From Prochlorococcus sp. AG-412-J13 (GTDB lineage: Bacteria > Cyanobacteriota > Cyanobacteriia > PCC-6307 > Cyanobiaceae): a stretch of DNA of 64,000 nucleotides. The stretch's first letter is position 1. Each line of letters starts with the position of its first letter. The translations under genes and the position numbers were made by a program. Below are positions 82-20,109 of the stretch, piece by piece. The DNA lies in the NCBI GenBank assembly GCA_003214815.1, contig QCLE01000006.1, forward strand, positions 1-64,000, read 5' to 3'. The notes below the pieces were generated by a model that was not told where the DNA came from, did no database searches, and was given only the letters and a program-made list of their open reading frames with translations.

Positions 82-1095
82 CTAAAATCTCTTACCAATT
101 TGGAACCTTACATTATTTCTTGGTTCACTTGATGTAAATTCATAATGACTATTTTCAAAGAATAAGGACATCGTTAAATCCTTATCTAAATAAGGACGGA
201 AATTTAATGTGGTTCTTAGATAATTTGAGCCTGTTAAATTGTTCATACTTGCCAAGCTGTAAACATCAGAAATATTTATATCAAATCTTTCATTAATTTT
301 CCATTTCAATAAATTCTCAACATCCCATCCAGGAATTAAATCTCCACAATATTGAGTGTCAGAACAAAACTCACCACCAGTATGAAATATTGCAGCTGGA
401 CCTAATAATGTTTTTAGAGAAAATCTGTCTTTTTTAAACAGGTAATATCCCAGTCCCATTGATGTCTGTGTTCTGTGTTTCCCAGCAAATGCTGATTCGT
501 TGAACCTGTAATGAATGGTGTTATAAATAAAAAGTTTATTATTTAATGTTCTATCTTTTTCAAAATCTATATTTCCACTATTATTTCCAACTGCTTTTGA
601 AAAGCTAGAAGAAGATTCATTATATGCATAGCTTGTGGACAAACTGTATTCATTAAAAATACCTCTATATTGAGTATTGGTTGATAATGAATAGCCAATT
701 GATTCTCTTGATCCGGAAGAAGAACTATTAAATCCACCTCGTATTGAGTTTTGCCATCTTGAAGAAAAAGCAGTTGATGGCTTCTCATCTAATATTGGTT
801 CAACTGGTAATGGTTCAACGAGATCTTCGGTTTCTTTAAATTGACTAATTATCGTTTTATTAGTTTCGTTTTCTATAAGAGAATCTACTGGAATTTCAAT
901 AAAACCTAAATTAGGATTATCGATAACAATATTTAAGCTGTCGCTTCTTTCCTTAATTAAAGTTCCAATTATTTTAGTACCATCTTTGAGTTCGATCTTT
1001 AATTCTTCTGCTCTTAATTTATTAGGTAAAATTAAATTTATAAGAGGTATCAATACAATAACTAAAGTTTTAATGAGGTTATTACTAAAAGTCAT
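82..1095 (-). CDS. DUF481-type outer-membrane protein
   Basis: The 337-residue product has a hydrophobic signal peptide over about residues 8-29. A short N-terminal beta-rich segment follows (DGTKIIGTL...), of the kind that precedes DUF481 barrels. The remaining 220 residues are rich in alternating aromatic and polar strands and asparagine/serine turns, and the chain ends in Phe (RFQIGKRF), typical of outer-membrane barrels. I infer an outer-membrane barrel of unknown substrate. It lies 2 bp downstream of the metallopeptidase gene on the same strand, so the two are probably co-transcribed. It is part of the likely island at the left edge. Family assignment is by fold pattern, not by a search. 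Confidence 0.7.
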   Translation of the reverse strand: MTFSNNLIKTLVIVLIPLINLILPNKLRAEELKIELKDGTKIIGTLIKERSDSLNIVIDNPNLGFIEIPVDSLIENETNKTIISQFKETEDLVEPLPVEPILDEKPSTAFSSRWQNSIRGGFNSSSSGSRESIGYSLSTNTQYRGIFNEYSLSTSYAYNESSSSFSKAVGNNSGNIDFEKDRTLNNKLFIYNTIHYRFNESAFAGKHRTQTSMGLGYYLFKKDRFSLKTLLGPAAIFHTGGEFCSDTQYCGDLIPGWDVENLLKWKINERFDINISDVYSLASMNNLTGSNYLRTTLNFRPYLDKDLTMSLFFENSHYEFTSSEPRNNVRFQIGKRF

Positions 1096-1097
1096 TT

Positions 1098-1892
1098 TTA
1101 ACTTCCTGTATCTTTATTTAAGTCCTTAGGGAAAGGAGTTTTACTTAGATCAATTAAGCGATAGGCAGATTTAGTTTGTTTTAACTCTTTCATATATTGA
1201 TCATTTATTTCTCCATTTGAGAGGGCTTGCATATTTGATGTTGAGCAGGTTGAAGGAAGTACTCCCATGCCTGAAAGTAAGGCATACTTCCTTTGCGACC
1301 CTGATCCATGACTTCTACTCCCAACAGAATAAGCTGCTTCAGATAGATTTAAAATATTAGTTCTTGTGATCCCCAGTTTTTTATTCCCTGCTTTTAAAAA
1401 CATTCCAGCAATACAATCTGCATGTAATTCACGACTAGGTCCTCTTAATCTTATTCCGTAGGTATGTTGCAAAGCATGAGCAAATTCATGCGCAACTACA
1501 AATCCAATTGTTGAAATTCCAAATTCTTTTTTTAGAGCTTTTAATTGTTCTGGTACAAGATAAATAGTATTAGTTAAATCACAATAAGAACTTCCACCTA
1601 TATCCCAGTTACCTATGTCATAAATAGAAGAGCCACAAGATCCTTGAATCCTGCTTCCCTGAAGAACGGGAATTACTTGAGGTGGGGGAAAATCTTTTAA
1701 AAATGTATTATTATTCCAATCGTTCAAGAGAAAACTTGCAACTTCCTTTATCTCAGATTCGACCAGGTTTTTATATTTTTGTTGCCTAAAATTAGAATAA
1801 CTTTGGTAAGAAATAATTGATAAAGAACCAATAATTAAACCTAAGAAGAAAGACTTTAAATGATTAAAAGATTTTATTTTTAAGTAAGCCAT
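1098..1892 (-). CDS. Putative secreted neutral zinc metallopeptidase
   Basis: The 264-residue protein has an N-terminal membrane anchor or signal (about residues 12-30). It carries a gluzincin-like zinc site HEFAHALQH, in which two His and one Glu fit the HExxH rule, followed about 20 residues later by ELHADCIAG, which can supply the third ligand. This matches the putative neutral zinc metallopeptidase family (YpfJ-like). Paired cysteines (CGSS, YCDL, DCIAG, STCST) suggest disulfides and an extracytoplasmic location. Its stop is almost joined to the DUF481 barrel gene, suggesting joint work in the envelope. The substrate is unknown. Confidence 0.75.
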   Translation of the reverse strand: MAYLKIKSFNHLKSFFLGLIIGSLSIISYQSYSNFRQQKYKNLVESEIKEVASFLLNDWNNNTFLKDFPPPQVIPVLQGSRIQGSCGSSIYDIGNWDIGGSSYCDLTNTIYLVPEQLKALKKEFGISTIGFVVAHEFAHALQHTYGIRLRGPSRELHADCIAGMFLKAGNKKLGITRTNILNLSEAAYSVGSRSHGSGSQRKYALLSGMGVLPSTCSTSNMQALSNGEINDQYMKELKQTKSAYRLIDLSKTPFPKDLNKDTGS

Positions 1893-2030: not shown

Positions 2031-2363
2031 TTAAAAAGGGATCTCTTCTTGAGGTATTAATGGAGGATAACCAAGCCTTAATTTTCCTTCTTTATCTCTA
2101 TGAACTACACCATGTAAACGTCCAAGATTGTGTTTTGTATCTTTCCAAAATGCAGCGTCACAGTTACAGCAGCCCCAAGTTCTATGCTCTGGAAAGTCTG
2201 GTTGGCAGCCAGTAATATGCCATTTACCACTTTCCCAAACTTCTTGAGTTGGCATCCCAAACATTGAGGGTCTAACTTCTCTTTTTTTGCATCGAGGGCA
2301 AACTATTGGTTTCCTTGAGCAAATGAACCAATCTGGTCTTTCTCTTAATTGAGTGCATTTCAT
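2031..2363 (-). CDS. Small zinc-ribbon-like protein coupled to integrase
   Basis: This 110-residue protein has a CPRC pair near residue 23 and a CCNC pair near residue 66, plus further Cys and His, giving a zinc-ribbon-like layout. I do not recognise a named family. Its ATG overlaps the integrase stop (ATGA, 2360-2363), so the two genes are translationally coupled. That makes this protein a likely part of the mobile module, perhaps a DNA-binding or directionality partner. The role is inference from coupling only. Confidence 0.6.
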   Translation of the reverse strand: MKCTQLRERPDWFICSRKPIVCPRCKKREVRPSMFGMPTQEVWESGKWHITGCQPDFPEHRTWGCCNCDAAFWKDTKHNLGRLHGVVHRDKEGKLRLGYPPLIPQEEIPF

Positions 2364-3523
2364 AATTTCTTAGCGGCAATTTCCCTTGCATCCTTTAGAG
2401 CAAAAGTTGATAAATAAGTATCCTGATGAATTTTCACACTATGACCCATTGATTCAGCAGCGTTAGCAGTTGATAGATCAGATTTTGTAGATTTAATGCC
2501 CCAATAATGTCTAAGGTCATAAAGCTGGAATTTTTCTTCTTTATCGGCAAAATAGTCCCTTAACCACTTAGCCATTGCATAACCTTCAGCAGCAGCTTTT
2601 TCAGCGTCATAATTATCTACTCCTAACATTTCTAAATTTCTTTGCACATTCATAAGATCAAATTCTTCTACATAGCTCTTCGGTAGTGCGTAACAATATT
2701 TAAGTTTCATTTTTGCATCTTCTTTATTGTTATTAGAACATTCAGCAACATAACCTTCTAATGGTTTAAGCGTCCATACTTCACTAACTCGACAACCATA
2801 AGTAAATATTGCAGCAATAGCCCAGCCAAATCTTAGGTGGCTTCTTAATTCTTTAACGGTGTTATACATTAACTCTGGGTCTTTTGCTTCTCTAGTTAAT
2901 GGCTCATATTTAAGTTTTTCAGAAAACTTTTTAACTTCTTTTAAATCTGGAATATCTGCAAAGGTGGCAAGCCTAAGACAATATTTCATCATGTCGAATC
3001 TAGTTTTTTCAGTTTTAAACTTTTTGACAGTAGAAATAATGTAATCAGCGGTAAGTAATTTGTGATGTTCTAATTTGATTGAGTTTGGCTTAGTAAGTTT
3101 ATTTCTTGGGGCTAAATATTGAGCAATAGATTTCCAGTTTCTTTTTTTCTTAGGAGTCCTTTCTACTTCGCCACTCCAGAAATCTTCTTCAAAGGCTTTA
3201 TAAATATCACTAATTTTTAGGCTCTTCTTTTGTGCAGCAAGTTTTTCTTCGTCAGCTAACCATTCATTCCAAATAAATAATCTAGAAATTTTTTGACTAC
3301 TTAATTTAAGAGCAAGTTTTTTGGCCTTAATTAAATTAGTATCCTCTGCGGTCAATCTAATTGAAATCCGCTGTTGTTTTAACTGCGTCCAATCAGGGTC
3401 ATACTTATCTGGAAGCATAGCTCTAAGGTATAAACCGTTCCTTCGGTTCTGAATAGTAACCCCAGCCTTATCTATTTTTAATTCCTTATTAATTGCTTCT
3501 AATTTGTTTTGAAATAGTGTCAT
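2360..3523 (-). CDS. Tyrosine-type site-specific recombinase (integrase)
   Basis: The catalytic half shows the tyrosine-recombinase set. Numbering from an upstream in-frame ATG at 3607, these are Arg273 in GCRVSEVW, Tyr-Asp-Leu-Arg-His at 363-367 (Tyr in place of the usual first His), Gly-His at 388-389 and the nucleophile Tyr398 in TYLSTF. The N-terminal half looks like an arm-binding plus core-binding domain. I prefer the ATG at 3523: the 28 residues before it read like translated non-coding DNA, including a tRNA-3'-end-like string. The gene points away from tRNA-Ser, with its 5' end about 230 bp from the tRNA. It is probably the integrase of a tRNA-associated integrative element, active or relic. 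Confidence 0.85.
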   Translation of the reverse strand: MTLFQNKLEAINKELKIDKAGVTIQNRRNGLYLRAMLPDKYDPDWTQLKQQRISIRLTAEDTNLIKAKKLALKLSSQKISRLFIWNEWLADEEKLAAQKKSLKISDIYKAFEEDFWSGEVERTPKKKRNWKSIAQYLAPRNKLTKPNSIKLEHHKLLTADYIISTVKKFKTEKTRFDMMKYCLRLATFADIPDLKEVKKFSEKLKYEPLTREAKDPELMYNTVKELRSHLRFGWAIAAIFTYGCRVSEVWTLKPLEGYVAECSNNNKEDAKMKLKYCYALPKSYVEEFDLMNVQRNLEMLGVDNYDAEKAAAEGYAMAKWLRDYFADKEEKFQLYDLRHYWGIKSTKSDLSTANAAESMGHSVKIHQDTYLSTFALKDAREIAAKKL

Positions 3524-3534
3524 TTTTGCTTGTT

Positions 3535-3550
3535 CGGAGGGACTAGAGCC
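3535..3550 (-). other. tRNA-like fragment beside the integrase start
   Basis: On the minus strand this reads GGCTCTAGTCCCTCCG. Its first ten bases equal tRNA-Ser positions 3777-3786, and its last seven (CCCTCCG) equal the tRNA 3' terminus at 3834-3840. It lies 12 bp upstream of the preferred integrase start. It could be a degenerate attachment-site remnant or a chance match. The T-stem does not pair, so it is not an intact tRNA end. Confidence 0.3.
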
Positions 3551-3564
3551 AACTATTTTTTTGC

Positions 3565-3585
3565 GTGGCCTACTAATGTGGCCTA
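3565..3585. repeat. Pair of 8-bp direct repeats upstream of integrase
   Basis: GTGGCCTA occurs at 3565-3572 and again at 3578-3585, so the copies start 13 bp apart. Both lie just upstream of the preferred integrase start. They are GC-richer than their surroundings and could be recombinase or accessory-protein binding sites; this is inference. Confidence 0.35.
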
Positions 3586-3753
3586 AATATAGCCAGAAAT
3601 AGACCATTATGCCAATTTGTCCCGTCAGAGGTACTCAACGAAATGCCTATATTTCTAAACCCGTTGAAGCTATTACTATGACATCAATTACTAGACTATG
3701 ACTGCCTTCTTATGCTATAATTATTTGGTTCGGATACAACTGAATAACCCGTT

Positions 3754-3840
3754 GGAGGGGTGGTCGAGTGGTTTAAGGCTCTAGTCTTGAAAACTAGCGT
3801 ATCTGCAAGGGTACCGTGGGTTCGAATCCCACCCCCTCCG
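3754..3840 (+). tRNA. trnS-UGA: tRNA-Ser (UGA)
   Basis: The 87-nt sequence folds as a class II tRNA. The acceptor stem GGAGGGG (3754-3760) pairs with CCCCTCC (3833-3839), with discriminator G at 3840. The anticodon stem CTAGT/ACTAG encloses a loop with TGA. A long variable arm follows (about 3797-3815), then T arm GTGGG-TTCGAAT-CCCAC. CCA is not encoded. The gene appears intact, and an integrase gene lies on its 5' side. Confidence 0.96.
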
Positions 3841-3919
3841 TTCTAATAAAGTAACTGAAGTTCAAAAAATAATAAATGCATTTTTGGTTAGTTATTGTTA
3901 GTATGAATTAATTTAGACT

Positions 3920-4120
3920 ATGAGTAAAGGATTTGCCACAGATAATTTAATATCCAAAAAATTGAAAAAAAAAGTTATTTCAAATGTTCCTCCAGGAAGA
4001 TTAATATCTTGGTCTCCTTGGCCACCGGCTAATTTTCAGACAAGATATCCAGCTTTCCCTTTTGTTCTTACAATATTGATTATAGTAATCGGGCAATGGT
4101 ATTTTTCCCTACTAAGATAA
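3920..4120 (+). CDS. Small single-span membrane protein
   Basis: The 66-residue product has a basic N-terminal half (KKLKKK), a Pro/Trp-rich stretch (SWSPWPPANF) and one transmembrane segment over about residues 46-64. The family is not recognised. It starts with ATG shortly after tRNA-Ser and is followed by another membrane protein gene. The orderly layout (charged cytoplasmic part, then one helix) and normal codon use support a real gene, but no function can be assigned. Confidence 0.55.
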   Translation: MSKGFATDNLISKKLKKKVISNVPPGRLISWSPWPPANFQTRYPAFPFVLTILIIVIGQWYFSLLR

Positions 4121-4175
4121 TTTGAAACTGGTTTTTGTACTTAAACTTTAGATTAATTGAGTTTTAGAATTTATT

Positions 4176-4760
4176 TTGTTTTTTTCAATTTTATTATTTA
4201 CCCATTTTCAAGCGGCAATCATCCCAATATTATTAGGAATTAAATCGACTAATAACTTCAAACATCTAAGCAAGAACGAATTGATACCTTTCGGTTTTAT
4301 TTTTTTAGGACTAGCATCTATTTCTGAAATGATAGATCATACCCAAACATCTTGGATATATGTAGATCATTCTTCTTTTTTTAATTGGTTATTTTATTCT
4401 TTCCTATCTTTAGGCCTAACATGTTTATCAATATCAGTTATAAAAAATAAATTTATTCAAGCAACTAACTTTTGCATTTCTTTATGTTCAATAATCTCAT
4501 ATTTTTTATTTAATAAAACTATTGCTCTTATTTTTCAAGTAATAATAAGTATCTTTCTAATAATGAATTGGCAAAGAATTTTTAAAGATTGGCTCTTTAT
4601 CTTGTACCCAATATTTGGTATTTTTTTTACGACTTTCTTTGGAACAAAGCTCTCAATTAGTGGAGATCAATTTTGGCATGTCCTAATAGGGCCATCTGGG
4701 ACAATTAGCGTTCTTACTTTTTATTTAGTGCTAAAGAGATCCGACAAAAGATTTACTTAA
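4176..4760 (+). CDS. Hypothetical polytopic membrane protein
   Basis: The 194-residue protein has about six hydrophobic segments and no recognised catalytic motif. A buried-looking EMIDH and a late QFWHVL are its only notable polar clusters. The start is TTG; no better ATG lies nearby. It sits 7 bp upstream of a small secreted protein gene, so the two may be co-transcribed. The family is not recognised. The His, Asp and Glu within membrane segments could bind a cofactor, but that is speculation. Confidence 0.6.
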   Translation: MFFSILLFTHFQAAIIPILLGIKSTNNFKHLSKNELIPFGFIFLGLASISEMIDHTQTSWIYVDHSSFFNWLFYSFLSLGLTCLSISVIKNKFIQATNFCISLCSIISYFLFNKTIALIFQVIISIFLIMNWQRIFKDWLFILYPIFGIFFTTFFGTKLSISGDQFWHVLIGPSGTISVLTFYLVLKRSDKRFT

Positions 4761-4767
4761 GATAATT

Positions 4768-5097
4768 ATGAAAATATTTGTATTTACCATTTTCATAATG
4801 TGCTTAGTCACAATAATCTCTCCAGTTGAAATTTTTGCTGATACAGCGCTTGATGTTTATATGAATGATTTTTATTCTAAATCTAATGAAGCAAGCGAGA
4901 TTCTCAAAGAAATCGAAAACAGTTTAAAAGAGGGATCAAGGGAAAAAGTATGCTCTAGGCAAAAAGAGGCGGCAAGAATAGGATTATTAGCTAACAAATC
5001 ATTAATAAAAGCCTTTGAAATAGAAGGGACTAATCCACCAATGCAAGCAATAAAGGCAAGTCAAAAAAGATGGGAATCTATTCTGAATGAGTGCTAA
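4768..5097 (+). CDS. Small secreted helical protein
   Basis: The 109-residue protein has a clear signal peptide (about residues 1-24, ending near IFADTA) and a mature part that looks wholly alpha-helical. Two cysteines (near residues 62 and 109) could form a disulfide. The family is not recognised, although it resembles short exported helical proteins common in picocyanobacteria. It lies 7 bp after the preceding membrane protein gene, suggesting an operon. The periplasm or thylakoid lumen is the likely location. Confidence 0.6.
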   Translation: MKIFVFTIFIMCLVTIISPVEIFADTALDVYMNDFYSKSNEASEILKEIENSLKEGSREKVCSRQKEAARIGLLANKSLIKAFEIEGTNPPMQAIKASQKRWESILNEC

Positions 5098-5125
5098 AGA
5101 AAGAGAGTAAATCTATAAATTTTTT

Positions 5126-5560
5126 TTAAATTTGCATTCTTACAGATTTACTAATTAAGGGAATTTCAGGTTCAACTCCATAAATACATTGAGAAATCGA
5201 ATAAATAAAAATACATAGTGTAAATATAAAAATAATTGAGCCTAATTCAACTATGGGAAATATTTTCAAGAGATATGAAATTATTATCAAAGCAATATCA
5301 ATAAGTAATGCTTGGCATGCGTTATATCTAACGAAATAGGGAACTTTTGGATTTCTTGCTAATCCAGCAAACAAAATTATAAATAATAAAAAACTACCAA
5401 AAGGCAAATATTTTTCAATAATTGCTATTGGGAAAGTTAGTAACAATATTATTTTTAAAAAAGAATATTTATAGAACAAATAATATCCAAAAGGTATTGA
5501 TGCCCTTAATGGCAAAGTATATAAAAATACTGATGAGAGTCTCTGGAATATCTGATTCAA
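5126..5560 (-). CDS. Tic20-like membrane protein
   Basis: The 144-residue protein has four hydrophobic segments and the conserved stretch ARNPKVPYFVRYNACQALL, typical of the Tic20/Ycf60 family. In plastids the homologue is part of the inner-envelope protein translocon; the cyanobacterial role is not settled. The start codon is TTG at 5560, chosen because no ATG precedes the first membrane segment. It is convergent with the small secreted protein gene and divergent from gloA. Confidence 0.8.
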   Translation of the reverse strand: MNQIFQRLSSVFLYTLPLRASIPFGYYLFYKYSFLKIILLLTFPIAIIEKYLPFGSFLLFIILFAGLARNPKVPYFVRYNACQALLIDIALIIISYLLKIFPIVELGSIIFIFTLCIFIYSISQCIYGVEPEIPLISKSVRMQI

Positions 5561-5693
5561 TATATAGTTGAAATTTAGTAATAATATTTTAACCTAATTT
5601 TTCTTAACTTAATTAAAGACTTAGCCTCGAAAATATCAATTTTGGCAGATGGTTGTTAAATATTAGATAATTAATTAAGGTTCATAATTCAAA

Positions 5694-6083
5694 ATGCGTA
5701 TCCTACATACAATGTTGAGAGTTGGAGATTTAGATAAATCCATTGATTTCTACGTCAATAGATTAGGAATGAATTTATTAAGAAAAAAGGATTACCCTCA
5801 TGGAAAATTCACTTTGGCATTTGTTGGCTATGGTTCAGAAAAAGAAAACACAGTAATTGAATTAACTTATAACTGGGATAAAAAGTCTGAAGACTATGAG
5901 CTTGGAGATAAATATGGTCATATAGCTATTGGAGTAAAAGATATTCATCTTATTTGCCAAAGATTAGAAAATAATGGTTGTAAAGTAACCACCAAACCTA
6001 AAACAATGAAAAACAGTACAACTGTCTTGGCTTTTGTTGAGGATCCTGACGGATATAAAATTGAACTTATTGAAAGAGATTAA
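5694..6083 (+). CDS. gloA: Lactoylglutathione lyase (glyoxalase I)
   Basis: At 129 residues this is the normal length for bacterial GloA. It opens with [20 protein letters not shown], the vicinal-oxygen-chelate pattern with the first metal His at residue 5. It continues with VIELTYNW (Glu), HIAIGVKDI (His) and [14 protein letters not shown] (last Glu). These give the four metal ligands of a Ni/Co-type glyoxalase. It converts the methylglyoxal-glutathione hemithioacetal to S-lactoylglutathione. It stands alone, followed by a 297-bp gap. Confidence 0.92.
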
Positions 6084-6273
6084 AAGCGCGGAAATTTTTA
6101 ATTTAATAAACAAATAACTAAAATAAAAAATAACAAAAAAGATTGAATTATCTAATAAAACGTTTGCAAATAACGAAAAAAATATTTATAAAATCATATT
6201 GGATAGATTCTAAAGTTTCAATTGCTAAATAACATTATTTCTAAGATGAGAGATCATAAAAAACTAAACTTGA

Positions 6274-6306
6274 AATACAATACAATACAATACAATACAA
6301 TACAAT
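6274..6306. repeat. AATAC microsatellite (about 6.6 units)
   Basis: Six perfect copies of AATAC plus AAT run from 6274 to 6306, ending about 75 bp before the RHH gene. Simple repeats this long are uncommon in streamlined genomes. The unit length (5 bp) would let slippage change promoter spacing. The rest of the 6084-6380 gap shows no gene. Confidence 0.9.
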
Positions 6307-6350
6307 CTATATTAAATCTATTTAGAATTTATAGACAATCTATTTAGATT
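6304..6350. promoter_or_regulatory. Phased AATCTA half-sites, candidate RHH operator
   Basis: AATCTA occurs at 6304, 6315 and 6337, so spacings are 11 and 22 bp, whole helical turns. At 6337-6350 it forms the perfect inverted repeat AATCTA-TT-TAGATT. At 6315-6328 it forms the same with one mismatch (TAGAAT). It sits 30 bp upstream of a gene encoding a ribbon-helix-helix protein, a class that often autoregulates through such repeats. Binding is inference. Confidence 0.45.
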
Positions 6351-6380
6351 AAATTATTATGGAACTATAGCATAAAGCTT

Positions 6381-6878
6381 ATGCCTAGTAATTGGTCAAA
6401 AATAAGAGATGAATGGCTTGATAGAACTGCCATTGCGAAAGATGATGCTAAATGGGCATTAGAGGCTTTAATTAATTCTGAAGAAGAGTTGTTTGAAATA
6501 GAACAAAAAATCAAGAATAAAGAGGAGGCTATAAGCCAAGTAAAAATTTTGAAGAAAAAGGTTAAAGAAAATATTTCCTCTAAAGAAATTAGTCTCGATG
6601 ATATTGCATTAAATACTTCAAATTCAAACAAAGTACAGATCTCAGTACCATCAAATCTTACTTATCTTTTGAAAGTTTGGGCAGCAGCAGAAGGCAGAGA
6701 TCTATCGAGTGTTGCTTTTCAATGTTTAGAAACTGGAATAAGGGAAATGAAAAGCAAAGGTTCAATACCTTCAGTAGCAGTAAATAGATATGACTTGGCC
6801 TGTCAAAAGAGGATTGCACTAGCAGAAGTAAACAATCTATTGGAGAAATACGAAATAGCTCAGAATGAAATCAAATAA
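6381..6878 (+). CDS. Coiled-coil protein with RHH-like DNA-binding domain
   Basis: Of 165 residues, about 25-70 form a charged coiled coil (EEELFEIEQKIKNKEEA...). Residues about 92-130 read VQISVPSNL, then a helix (LKVWAAAEGRDLSSVAF), then a second helix ending QCLETGIREM. This is the beta-strand plus two-helix layout of ribbon-helix-helix (CopG/Arc-like) domains. It ends 2 bp before the next gene, so the pair is an operon. Its upstream region holds phased inverted repeats. I infer an autoregulating DNA-binding protein; the family was not confirmed by search. Confidence 0.6.
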   Translation: MPSNWSKIRDEWLDRTAIAKDDAKWALEALINSEEELFEIEQKIKNKEEAISQVKILKKKVKENISSKEISLDDIALNTSNSNKVQISVPSNLTYLLKVWAAAEGRDLSSVAFQCLETGIREMKSKGSIPSVAVNRYDLACQKRIALAEVNNLLEKYEIAQNEIK

Positions 6879-18891: not shown

Positions 18892-20109
18892 ATGGAATAT
18901 ATGGCAAGTAATTTAAAGGTACAAAAACAATTAATTCATTCTAAAAATATCTTATTTATTCAAGACATCGATGGAGTTTGTATCCCTTTAGTTAAAGATC
19001 CAATGACTAGAAAATTAGAATCAAAATATATCTATGCAGTAAAAGAATTTGCCGAAGAATTCTTTGTATTAACTTGCGGGGAACATGAAGGTCCAAGAGG
19101 GGTTAACAGAATAATAGAAAGGAGTTTAGGGTGCACTACTGAGCCTAAAAAAAAAGAACTATATTTAAGAGGTTTAGCTGCTTGTGGAGTAGAGTATCAA
19201 GATAATGATGGTGAAATAAGTTTTGAAGGAGTTTCAGAAAAAGAACTGGATTTTCTATCTAAAGTACCAAGTTTAATCAGACCAAAATTTAATTTAATAG
19301 TTAAGAATATTTTCCCTGAACTTGACCAAGAAAATATCAATTTTCATGCGGCAAAATCGATATGTCAAACACGCTTCTCGCCAACTATTAATTTCAATAG
19401 TCTTTTTGAATTAGTAAAAAAAGATTCTGATAAAAGAAAACATATCCAAATTAGTTTTGAAAAAATGATGAATGAAATTATATACAAGGCTGAAAATGAA
19501 GGCCTTAAAAACTCATTTTTTCTACACATTTCGCCAAATTTAGGTAATGAAAATGATAGAGAAATAATAAAACTTTCTACTAAAACTGATATTGGATCAA
19601 CAGACATACAATTACTTATTAAAGGAGCAGTTAAAGATTCTGGAGTTTTATTTCTTTTAAATAAATTTATTGAGATTAAAACTGGCAAAGCTCCCTTTGG
19701 AAGTAATTTTAATTTTAGAAATTCGCCAAAATCTGTCAGAGAAAAAATAGATTTATGCAAAAGATCTATTCACAAAAGTGATATGCCTTTAATTATAGGA
19801 GTTGGGGATACAGTAACATCAAAAAAAAATAATGGTCAGAAAAGTTATTTAAGAGGAGGCAGTGACAGGTCTTTTCTAGAATTTATACAATTGTTAGGTA
19901 ATGAATTTGGTATTAATAATAAAATAATTTTTGTTGATAGTAGTTCTGGTGAAGTTGAAAGACCTTCTATAAAAAAAACTGGCTTAATTGGAATCAGTGA
20001 TATTTATGACAAATTAAAGTTTGATATAGTTTTTAAAAATGGTCCCAAAGAATATATAAGTTGGTTTATTGAACTTGCTAAAAAGAGATCAAATTTTAAA
20101 AAAAAATAA
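18892..20109 (+). CDS. stpA: Glucosylglycerol-3-phosphate phosphatase
   Basis: The 405-residue protein has a HAD-type nucleophile region ILFIQDIDGVCIPLVKDPMTR (Asp residues near 24 and 26). The later acidic region VGDTVTSKKNNGQ and the segment GGSDRSFLEFIQ match my recollection of cyanobacterial StpA/GgpP. It would dephosphorylate glucosylglycerol-phosphate to the osmolyte glucosylglycerol. No ggpS synthase is seen in this window. It starts with ATG, with two nearby in-frame Met (residues 1 and 4). It is followed at 44 bp by a radical SAM gene. Confidence 0.78.
   Translation: MEYMASNLKVQKQLIHSKNILFIQDIDGVCIPLVKDPMTRKLESKYIYAVKEFAEEFFVLTCGEHEGPRGVNRIIERSLGCTTEPKKKELYLRGLAACGVEYQDNDGEISFEGVSEKELDFLSKVPSLIRPKFNLIVKNIFPELDQENINFHAAKSICQTRFSPTINFNSLFELVKKDSDKRKHIQISFEKMMNEIIYKAENEGLKNSFFLHISPNLGNENDREIIKLSTKTDIGSTDIQLLIKGAVKDSGVLFLLNKFIEIKTGKAPFGSNFNFRNSPKSVREKIDLCKRSIHKSDMPLIIGVGDTVTSKKNNGQKSYLRGGSDRSFLEFIQLLGNEFGINNKIIFVDSSSGEVERPSIKKTGLIGISDIYDKLKFDIVFKNGPKEYISWFIELAKKRSNFKKK

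Follow-up and report, generated by a model that had tools for sequence, protein, structure and literature searches.

The 64,000-bp stretch of Prochlorococcus sp. AG-412-J13 analyzed here (the window, taken from the start of contig QCLE01000006.1, or C6) carries what we read as the tRNA-proximal end of an integrative element, or genomic island, specific to the tRNA-Ser(UGA) gene, and we put the probability of this reading, with the mechanism proposed for it, at roughly 0.9. In that mechanism, a tyrosine recombinase (YR) would recombine an element-borne site with the anticodon stem-loop of the tRNA-Ser gene, in which the two stem arms would form an inverted pair of binding sites and strands would be exchanged within the 7-bp loop. 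Insertion would displace the native promoter and 5' half of the tRNA gene to the far end of the element; the element's own promoter and 5' half would then complete the tRNA, so that the YR comes to lie just upstream of an intact tRNA, and excision would be the reverse of insertion. What the sequences show is the pairing of YR and tRNA across the genus, sites both with and without an insert, tRNA fragments repeated directly on the side that the mechanism predicts, the coordinates of junctions in relatives, replacement of the promoter, and a change of cargo at the YR stop codon; that the YR catalyzes these events is what we infer from them.

An earlier note, made from the window sequence alone, had described a YR and an ATGA-coupled gene beside a complete tRNA-Ser(UGA), with a metallopeptidase and a DUF481 barrel further left. 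The open reading frames (ORFs), the overlap and the tRNA, which is the sole tRNA of the window, were all recovered, and the two leftward proteins match PF04228 and PF04338. The note had also seen no second tRNA end and placed the far boundary to the left or considered it lost; the window begins at the first base of C6, one of 58 contigs in an assembly that is 97.4% complete, so the boundary could not be visible within it. In the features below, tRNA position n corresponds to window position 3752+n (ARAGORN numbering), and the acceptor stem starts at 3754.

3753-3841, plus strand: intact regenerated tRNA-Ser(UGA), anticodon TGA in the DNA, the predicted attachment target (tRNA search).
3781-3797, plus strand: putative recombinase core site, the anticodon stem-loop with arms CTAGT and ACTAG (clean fragment ends).
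3786-3792, plus strand: putative 7-bp strand-exchange (overlap) region CTTGAAA, the anticodon loop (bases common to all clean copies).
3692-3721, plus strand: predicted element-borne sigma-70-like tRNA promoter, TAGACT-18-TATAAT with TG before the second hexamer (motif scan and upstream identity).
2360-3607, minus strand: predicted tyrosine recombinase (integrase), 415-aa ORF with a likely true start at 3523 (family alignment).
2031-2363, minus strand: small CxxC (zinc-ribbon-like) protein of 110 aa, predicted to be translationally coupled to the YR (ATGA overlap).
1098-1892, minus strand: cargo, putative neutral zinc metallopeptidase, Zn_peptidase PF04228 (Pfam).
82-1095, minus strand: cargo, DUF481 (PF04338) outer-membrane barrel-like protein (Pfam).
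3920-6878, no strand assigned: conserved chromosomal 3' flank outside the element, with genes of 66, 194, 109, 144, 129 and 165 aa (genus comparison).

The association of recombinase and tRNA is a property of the family. A search of 266 genomes of the genus was made with the YR, and the best 30 matches, one per genome and the window included, were taken as loci; in 29 of these a tRNA-Ser(TGA) gene lies beside the YR, at identities to the window protein down to 26%, with the YR match starting 146-711 bp upstream of the tRNA and running away from it. The window has the same layout, its YR lying on the 5' side of the intact tRNA on the minus strand and pointing away from it. This 5' placement, which the earlier note had marked as deserving attention, recurs across the genus loci and would be the mark of 5'-half targeting. 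Of the 87 genomes with a completeness of at least 90%, 10 show a YR match at E <1e-29, counted among the matches listed. The weaker genus-wide matches are mostly a conserved 389-aa recombinase of about 25% identity, which was rejected as a member of the group on account of its separate tree branch; the three of its loci looked at (L195-L197, at G001:C1:531022, G013:C131:154617 and G043:C1:496806) all lack a tRNA within ~3 kb. In genome G185 (L073, G185:C15:1-18416), two inverted copies of tRNA, flank and YR are present, possibly a chimera of single-cell amplification, and each copy read by itself fits the layout with the YR upstream and pointing away.

The chromosomal interval upstream of the tRNA varies strongly in size between fixed flanks. 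We compared 95 loci, 94 of them with a full tRNA in a single copy except in G185 (two). On the 3' side, the 66-aa gene is found in 69 of the 95 loci and its neighbors in 25-62, many stretches ending earlier; the far 5' flank, subject to the same truncation, holds a 64-aa gene in 56 loci and, in 53 loci each, an 88-aa gene and a gene of 777-798 aa, the last ribonucleotide reductase-like by reading only. Both flanks lie on a single stretch in 56 loci, where the distance from the tRNA to the 64-aa gene spans 880-24,298 bp: 15 sites are empty (at most 920 bp), and 12, with intervals of 4.2-24.3 kb, hold a YR of this family. A placement of the window's element on the 3' side of the tRNA was rejected, the 3' flank being the conserved one. 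The presence/absence comparison proposed in the earlier note thus finds a strongly variable locus, and a constant gene order, which it held would speak against an element, fails as a refutation because the flank spacing varies so widely; of the other pattern that it named, a recombinase placed among ordinary phage integrases and no tRNA repeat to the left, the lack of a repeat is what this genome shows. In the same interval G012, G148 and G228 carry ~14-17 kb or more with type IV pilus/secretion-like genes, judged by reading, and no YR of the family.

Displaced tRNA halves lie on the side that the mechanism predicts. The stretches compared hold 37 copies of the 5' half and 20 of the 3' half; on the 94 loci with a full tRNA, where 1.52 Mb upstream and 0.26 Mb downstream were searched, all 33 5'-half copies are upstream and direct, and all 19 3'-half copies are downstream and direct. 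With the paired YR loci and the occupied and empty sites, these halves support the tRNA-associated integrative element that the earlier note had suggested. For mapping, clean copies were retained: 19 of the 37 5' copies (no mismatch at positions 2-34) and 16 of the 20 3' copies (at most one mismatch at positions 41-88), those dropped having internal substitutions or being degenerate, and nine further weak matches falling in neither class. Clean 5' copies end at position 40 (5 copies), 41 (3), 42 (1), 43 (2), 44 (6) or 45 (2), and clean 3' copies start at position 30 (2), 32 (2), 33 (3) or 34 (9). The only bases common to every clean copy are 34-40, CTTGAAA, the 7-nt anticodon loop; since clean 5' copies end at 40-45 and clean 3' copies start at 30-34, strand exchange would map to this 7-bp loop (3786-3792), where the exact cleavage points presumably lie. 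A likeness between the anticodon stem-loop and the core site on which such recombinases usually act, with its 7-bp overlap, is known (PMC8371274; this and the other sources cited here in excerpt).

The outer junctions agree with this position. Of 16 loci where it could be measured, 10 have their outermost 5' copy 884-914 bp from the 64-aa gene, a distance like that between tRNA and 64-aa gene in the 15 empty sites (880-914 bp). Contig C54 of G025 and the empty site of G042 are 98.8% identical over 1,548 bp beginning at tRNA position 44; C54 and C37, which bears a YR 94% identical to the window's, would face each other across the island.

Short spacings between tRNA copies recur as well. Nine YR-less genomes (G001, G003, G005, G028, G029, G040, G090, G137 and G163) have a 5'-half copy 161-168 bp upstream of the intact tRNA, and a 167-bp spacing separates two partial tRNA copies in G043, G113 and G116, which raises the question of whether this spacing represents a miniature element or an excision footprint. 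On the other side of the tRNA, inserts of 0.6-2.4 kb ending in 3'-half copies are present in G002, G006, G029, G030, G032, G040, G061, G075, G086, G112, G150, G163, G169, G216 and G229; small proteins that share a nearly identical signal peptide (like MKRFLIPLLAALALPTAVNA) are encoded by several of them, and no recombinase was found by reading among their listed ORFs.

The sequence in front of the tRNA follows the element and not the chromosomal site. Over the 110 bp upstream of the tRNA, the window has 96-97% identity with G013 and G025, versus 75-77% with six empty sites. At the distal end of G025, the upstream sequence shows 98-100% identity with five of these empty sites, 88% with the remaining one, and 82% with its own proximal counterpart. 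The scanned stretch holds two promoter-type sites against 1.4 expected, the site at 3692-3721 being weak by itself; on the upstream identities, the element is predicted to supply the promoter of the tRNA. Recombinant bacterial tRNA genes are described as keeping their original promoter with very few exceptions, and targeting of the 5' half as rare (PMC8371274).

Cargo changes at the YR stop codon. The YRs of G013 and G025 (G013:C131 and G025:C37, Prochlorococcus marinus single cells AAA795-F05 and AAA795-M23) are 95% and 94% identical to that of the window, and the window shares 1,399 bp at 95% with these genomes from the tRNA to 2362, the YR stop; beyond it on the island side, blastn gave no further match to either genome. 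The metallopeptidase (1098-1892) has a homologue in G096 alone (47% identity) among the 29 other YR loci, and the DUF481 protein (82-1095) has no match in any of the 29. By these comparisons, the cargo beyond the YR appears to be exchangeable. The G013 island carries, 3.5-12.4 kb from the tRNA, cargo of phosphate/arsenate type (PhoB/PhoR-, PstS-, ChrA- and ArsR-like, by reading).

The ORF at 2360-3607 is a tyrosine recombinase by family comparison, and its recombination activity is predicted. The window protein alone matches nothing in Pfam or PHROG, and among the 28 aligned family members (alignment A1, window included) 22 match Phage_integrase PF00589 and 12 match the PHROG integrase phrog_1; the family profile matches the XerC-like structure 4a8e at E 0.0012. 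Numbered from the likely start, R245, K267, R338 and Y370 are invariant in the family and H361 is nearly so, and we take these to be the catalytic residues. The likely start is at 3523, since both G013 and G025 have a stop codon in the stretch that matches the first 28 codons, which puts these in doubt. In a tree of 31 recombinases, in which the long rows L193, L194 and G128 have uncertain positions, the window YR groups with G013, G025, G225 and G177 (support 97/93) in a deep clade of its own, and the YR of G043 belongs to another clade with G149, G075, G229, G116 and G127 (support 100/98). Searched by tblastn against 50,697 phage records, the window YR has no match at E 0.01; with its deep clade, and within the sequences compared, this sets it apart from ordinary phage integrases, a grouping that the earlier note had proposed to check by a tree.

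Viral contigs scanned with the window YR alone gave no relative, and a scan with the family alignment gave two, L193 and L194, both from IMG/VR, whose YRs likewise match no phage record. L193 has the same chromosomal far flank and a tRNA-Ser(TGA), with the YR on the 3' side and VapE-like genes, a mirror image of the layout seen here. L194 is a phage-like contig, by reading; its distant YR (L194:2657-3869), found on a very long branch of the tree, has its 3' end against a tRNA-Ser(TGA) gene. The G043 and L193 elements have primase/helicase-type genes, including VapE-type genes in both and a Prim-Pol in G043, along with weak matches to the terminase small subunit. The satellite-like element of G043 also contains a second, short tyrosine recombinase of 211 aa (L066:6626-7258; Phage_integrase, E 4.6e-20).

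The ORF at 2031-2363 overlaps the YR stop codon as ATGA and was called a zinc-ribbon gene in the earlier note; the CxxC...CxxC pattern is present, and the name describes this motif, the 110-aa protein having no Pfam match and a PHROG match only at E 0.08. By tblastn, the protein occurs in 11 YR-bearing loci, including the window, and in G021, which lacks a YR. In eight loci its gene lies within 2 kb upstream of the tRNA; G125 has it at a distance of ~16.5 kb, and G014, G259 and G021 have it on the 3' side. The protein may act as an accessory or directionality factor.

The far flank of the island in the window genome lies, as placed by synteny, on contig C16, and by the same synteny C6 and C16 would be two sides of one island. 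If so, the element extends over 3.75 kb on C6 and ~20 kb on C16. From C16:144 to ~17,950 there are genes for Mrp/ApbC-like, HEAT-repeat, 4Fe-4S, PRK08275-type flavoprotein and LysR-type proteins, together with a taurine/sulfonate-type ATP-binding cassette transporter, an allophanate-hydrolase-like amidase and an M20 peptidase, as judged from the 12 of 18 ORFs scanned with Pfam or NCBIfam. The flavoprotein is found in 7 of the 266 genomes at E 1e-100, its own included. Stretches of this cassette 16.2, 6.2 and 17.7 kb long, 94-96% identical, are present in G127, G118 and G223, where all reach contig ends and the inner end lies 1.5-4 kb from tRNA-Thr(GGT)/tRNA-Tyr(GTA); in G127, the tRNA of that tRNA-Thr/Tyr island has beside it a 449-aa ORF that matches a PHROG integrase (E 1.2e-5). 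Homology of C16 to empty sites begins at ~20,028-20,060; in 10 of the 13 sites compared this point lies 184-210 bp upstream of the tRNA, and in the three with a nearby 5' copy 373-953 bp.

Several observations weigh against the integrative element as we read it. A search of the whole assembly with the 34-base 5' pattern of the tRNA, allowing at most three mismatches, recovered the intact tRNA and no second copy; C16:1-26,000 holds no tRNA 5' half; and a distal 5'-half copy is likewise absent in G013, with its 95%-identical YR. The leftward search for a partial tRNA-Ser that the earlier note had proposed therefore finds none in this assembly, and does find one at the expected place in relatives, including G025 with its 94%-identical YR. 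Elsewhere in the genus, the YR of G128 abuts only a displaced 3' half of tRNA-Ser(TGA), the outermost fragment lies 1.49-2.34 kb and not ~0.9 kb from the 64-aa gene in 6 of 16 loci, and two mismatched 5' copies, the second copy of G177 and that of G009, match only to positions 33 and 36 and are outside the clean set. Among the 41 non-empty loci with both flanks, 29 lack this YR family (tblastn with the window YR), and no excision or circular form was observed. The missing fragment of the window genome is either in the gap between contigs or gone. C16 at 19.35-19.98 kb, just before the junction, resembles at ~70% blocks at the same site in G104, G086, G112, G007 and others, so that the C16-side fragment may have been lost through another insertion or a deletion; if it is gone, precise excision would be impossible, the tRNA would depend on the promoter of the element, and the copy in the window may be locked.

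The alternative that draws most on these points is a fixed hypervariable region with a relic YR, in which cargo is exchanged by homologous recombination between the flanks. The distal fragment missing from the window genome and G013 and the 29 loci without this YR would fit it, as would the occurrence of the C16 cassette at several places; in G116, two cassette blocks lie at the far flank of the tRNA-Ser island in an orientation opposite to that of the flank, a soft observation in a single case given that single-cell assemblies can be chimeric. The YR reading frame, however, is intact with its catalytic residues conserved across the family, the junctions in relatives are exact, and the block that the window shares with G013 and G025 on the island side is the promoter and YR module alone, which leaves the fixed region an unlikely account, with some weight of its own. 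Far less probable is a decayed prophage that left an ordinary phage integrase beside the tRNA. Such a history could be argued from Synechococcus RS9917, where a 42-kb island bounded by a tRNA-Ser (anticodon not stated in the excerpt), with a terminase and an integrase among its phage-like genes, has been described as a relic prophage (PMC2784084), and from the phage-like L194 with its distant YR and tRNA-Ser(TGA). Yet L194 sits on a very long branch, the recognized cargo consists of transport and metabolic genes, neither phage structural genes nor a phage-type integrase were found among the four window proteins (Pfam, PHROGs) and the 12 of 18 C16 ORFs, and an ordinary prophage was rejected on the lack of a match of the YR in the 50,697 phage records at E 0.01. 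Mere chance proximity of a recombinase to a tRNA is hardly credible and was rejected, since 29 of the best 30 loci, down to 26% identity, share the tRNA, the side and the orientation.

The integrative element has counterparts in known systems. Tycheposons of Prochlorococcus are reportedly the subject of a 2023 paper by Hackl et al. in Cell, and a partial tRNA copy marks their far end. With them, the element shares its Prochlorococcus host, a predicted YR next to a tRNA gene, islands specific to one tRNA, cargo genes, presence or absence in otherwise collinear genomes (56 loci), and the satellite-like relative in G043 at the same tRNA; it differs in that the window genome has no detectable distal tRNA fragment. 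No hallmark mobile-lifecycle gene beyond the YR was recognized in the four window and 12 of 18 C16 ORFs scanned. By its layout and proposed mechanism, the element in the window would work like a tycheposon. The size of tycheposons is given as 4-200 kb (PMC10872708). No description of this Prochlorococcus tRNA-Ser site was found in the literature searched, a weak negative given that the main tycheposon paper lay outside the search.

Targeting of the 5' half has been described in other systems. The T7-like cyanophages P-SSP7 and S-TIP37 use the first half of tRNA-Leu, with integration experimentally demonstrated (PMC8776855), so the 5' type has precedent in these hosts; these are lytic phages with a different tRNA target, whereas the window YR has no phage-record match. 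Picocyanobacterial integrases of cluster158946 typically lie upstream of their tRNA in islands of variable content, as here, but use tRNA-Phe/tRNA-Cys, are often near a small serine recombinase, and are distinct from tycheposon integrases according to the authors, the likeness being one of description only (PMC10187409). In Islander, 3,760 of 3,919 islands have a 3' fragment and 159 a 5' fragment (PMC4383910); the latter share the displacement and replacement of the 5' half, and differ in hosts and recombinases, the 5' type being a minority there. A full tRNA with a direct upstream 5' fragment, in the Islander sense, accompanies all 33 of the 5' copies of our family on full-tRNA loci and was not found in the window genome. 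Archaeal pTN3-like integrases likewise displace and replace the 5' half, with the tRNA expressed from the integrase promoter and anticodon-loop sites known (PMC8371274), in other hosts and with other recombinases.

A broader picture can be sketched tentatively, and it is more doubtful than the element itself. One tRNA-Ser(UGA) may serve as a two-sided cassette port at which related YRs, all crossing over in the anticodon loop, bring in elements that rebuild the 5' half together with a replacement promoter, or else the 3' half. Once the displaced half had decayed, as in the window genome, the host would depend on the element's promoter for this tRNA, a one-way ratchet toward a permanent island, and cassettes would move between islands with different tRNAs and YRs.

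Genomic islands carry much of the adaptive variation of Prochlorococcus, and this locus offers boundaries at base resolution, a mapped region of exchange, sites without an insert and an easy test of mobility. Targeting of the 5' half would explain the less usual position of the YR on the 5' side of its tRNA, and the transport/oxidoreductase cassette is common to two different tRNA islands. If it is true that decay of the displaced half locks the element, this would provide a simple route from mobile DNA to a fixed island. At this one place in the chromosome, the element appears to bring in and remove blocks of transport and metabolism genes.

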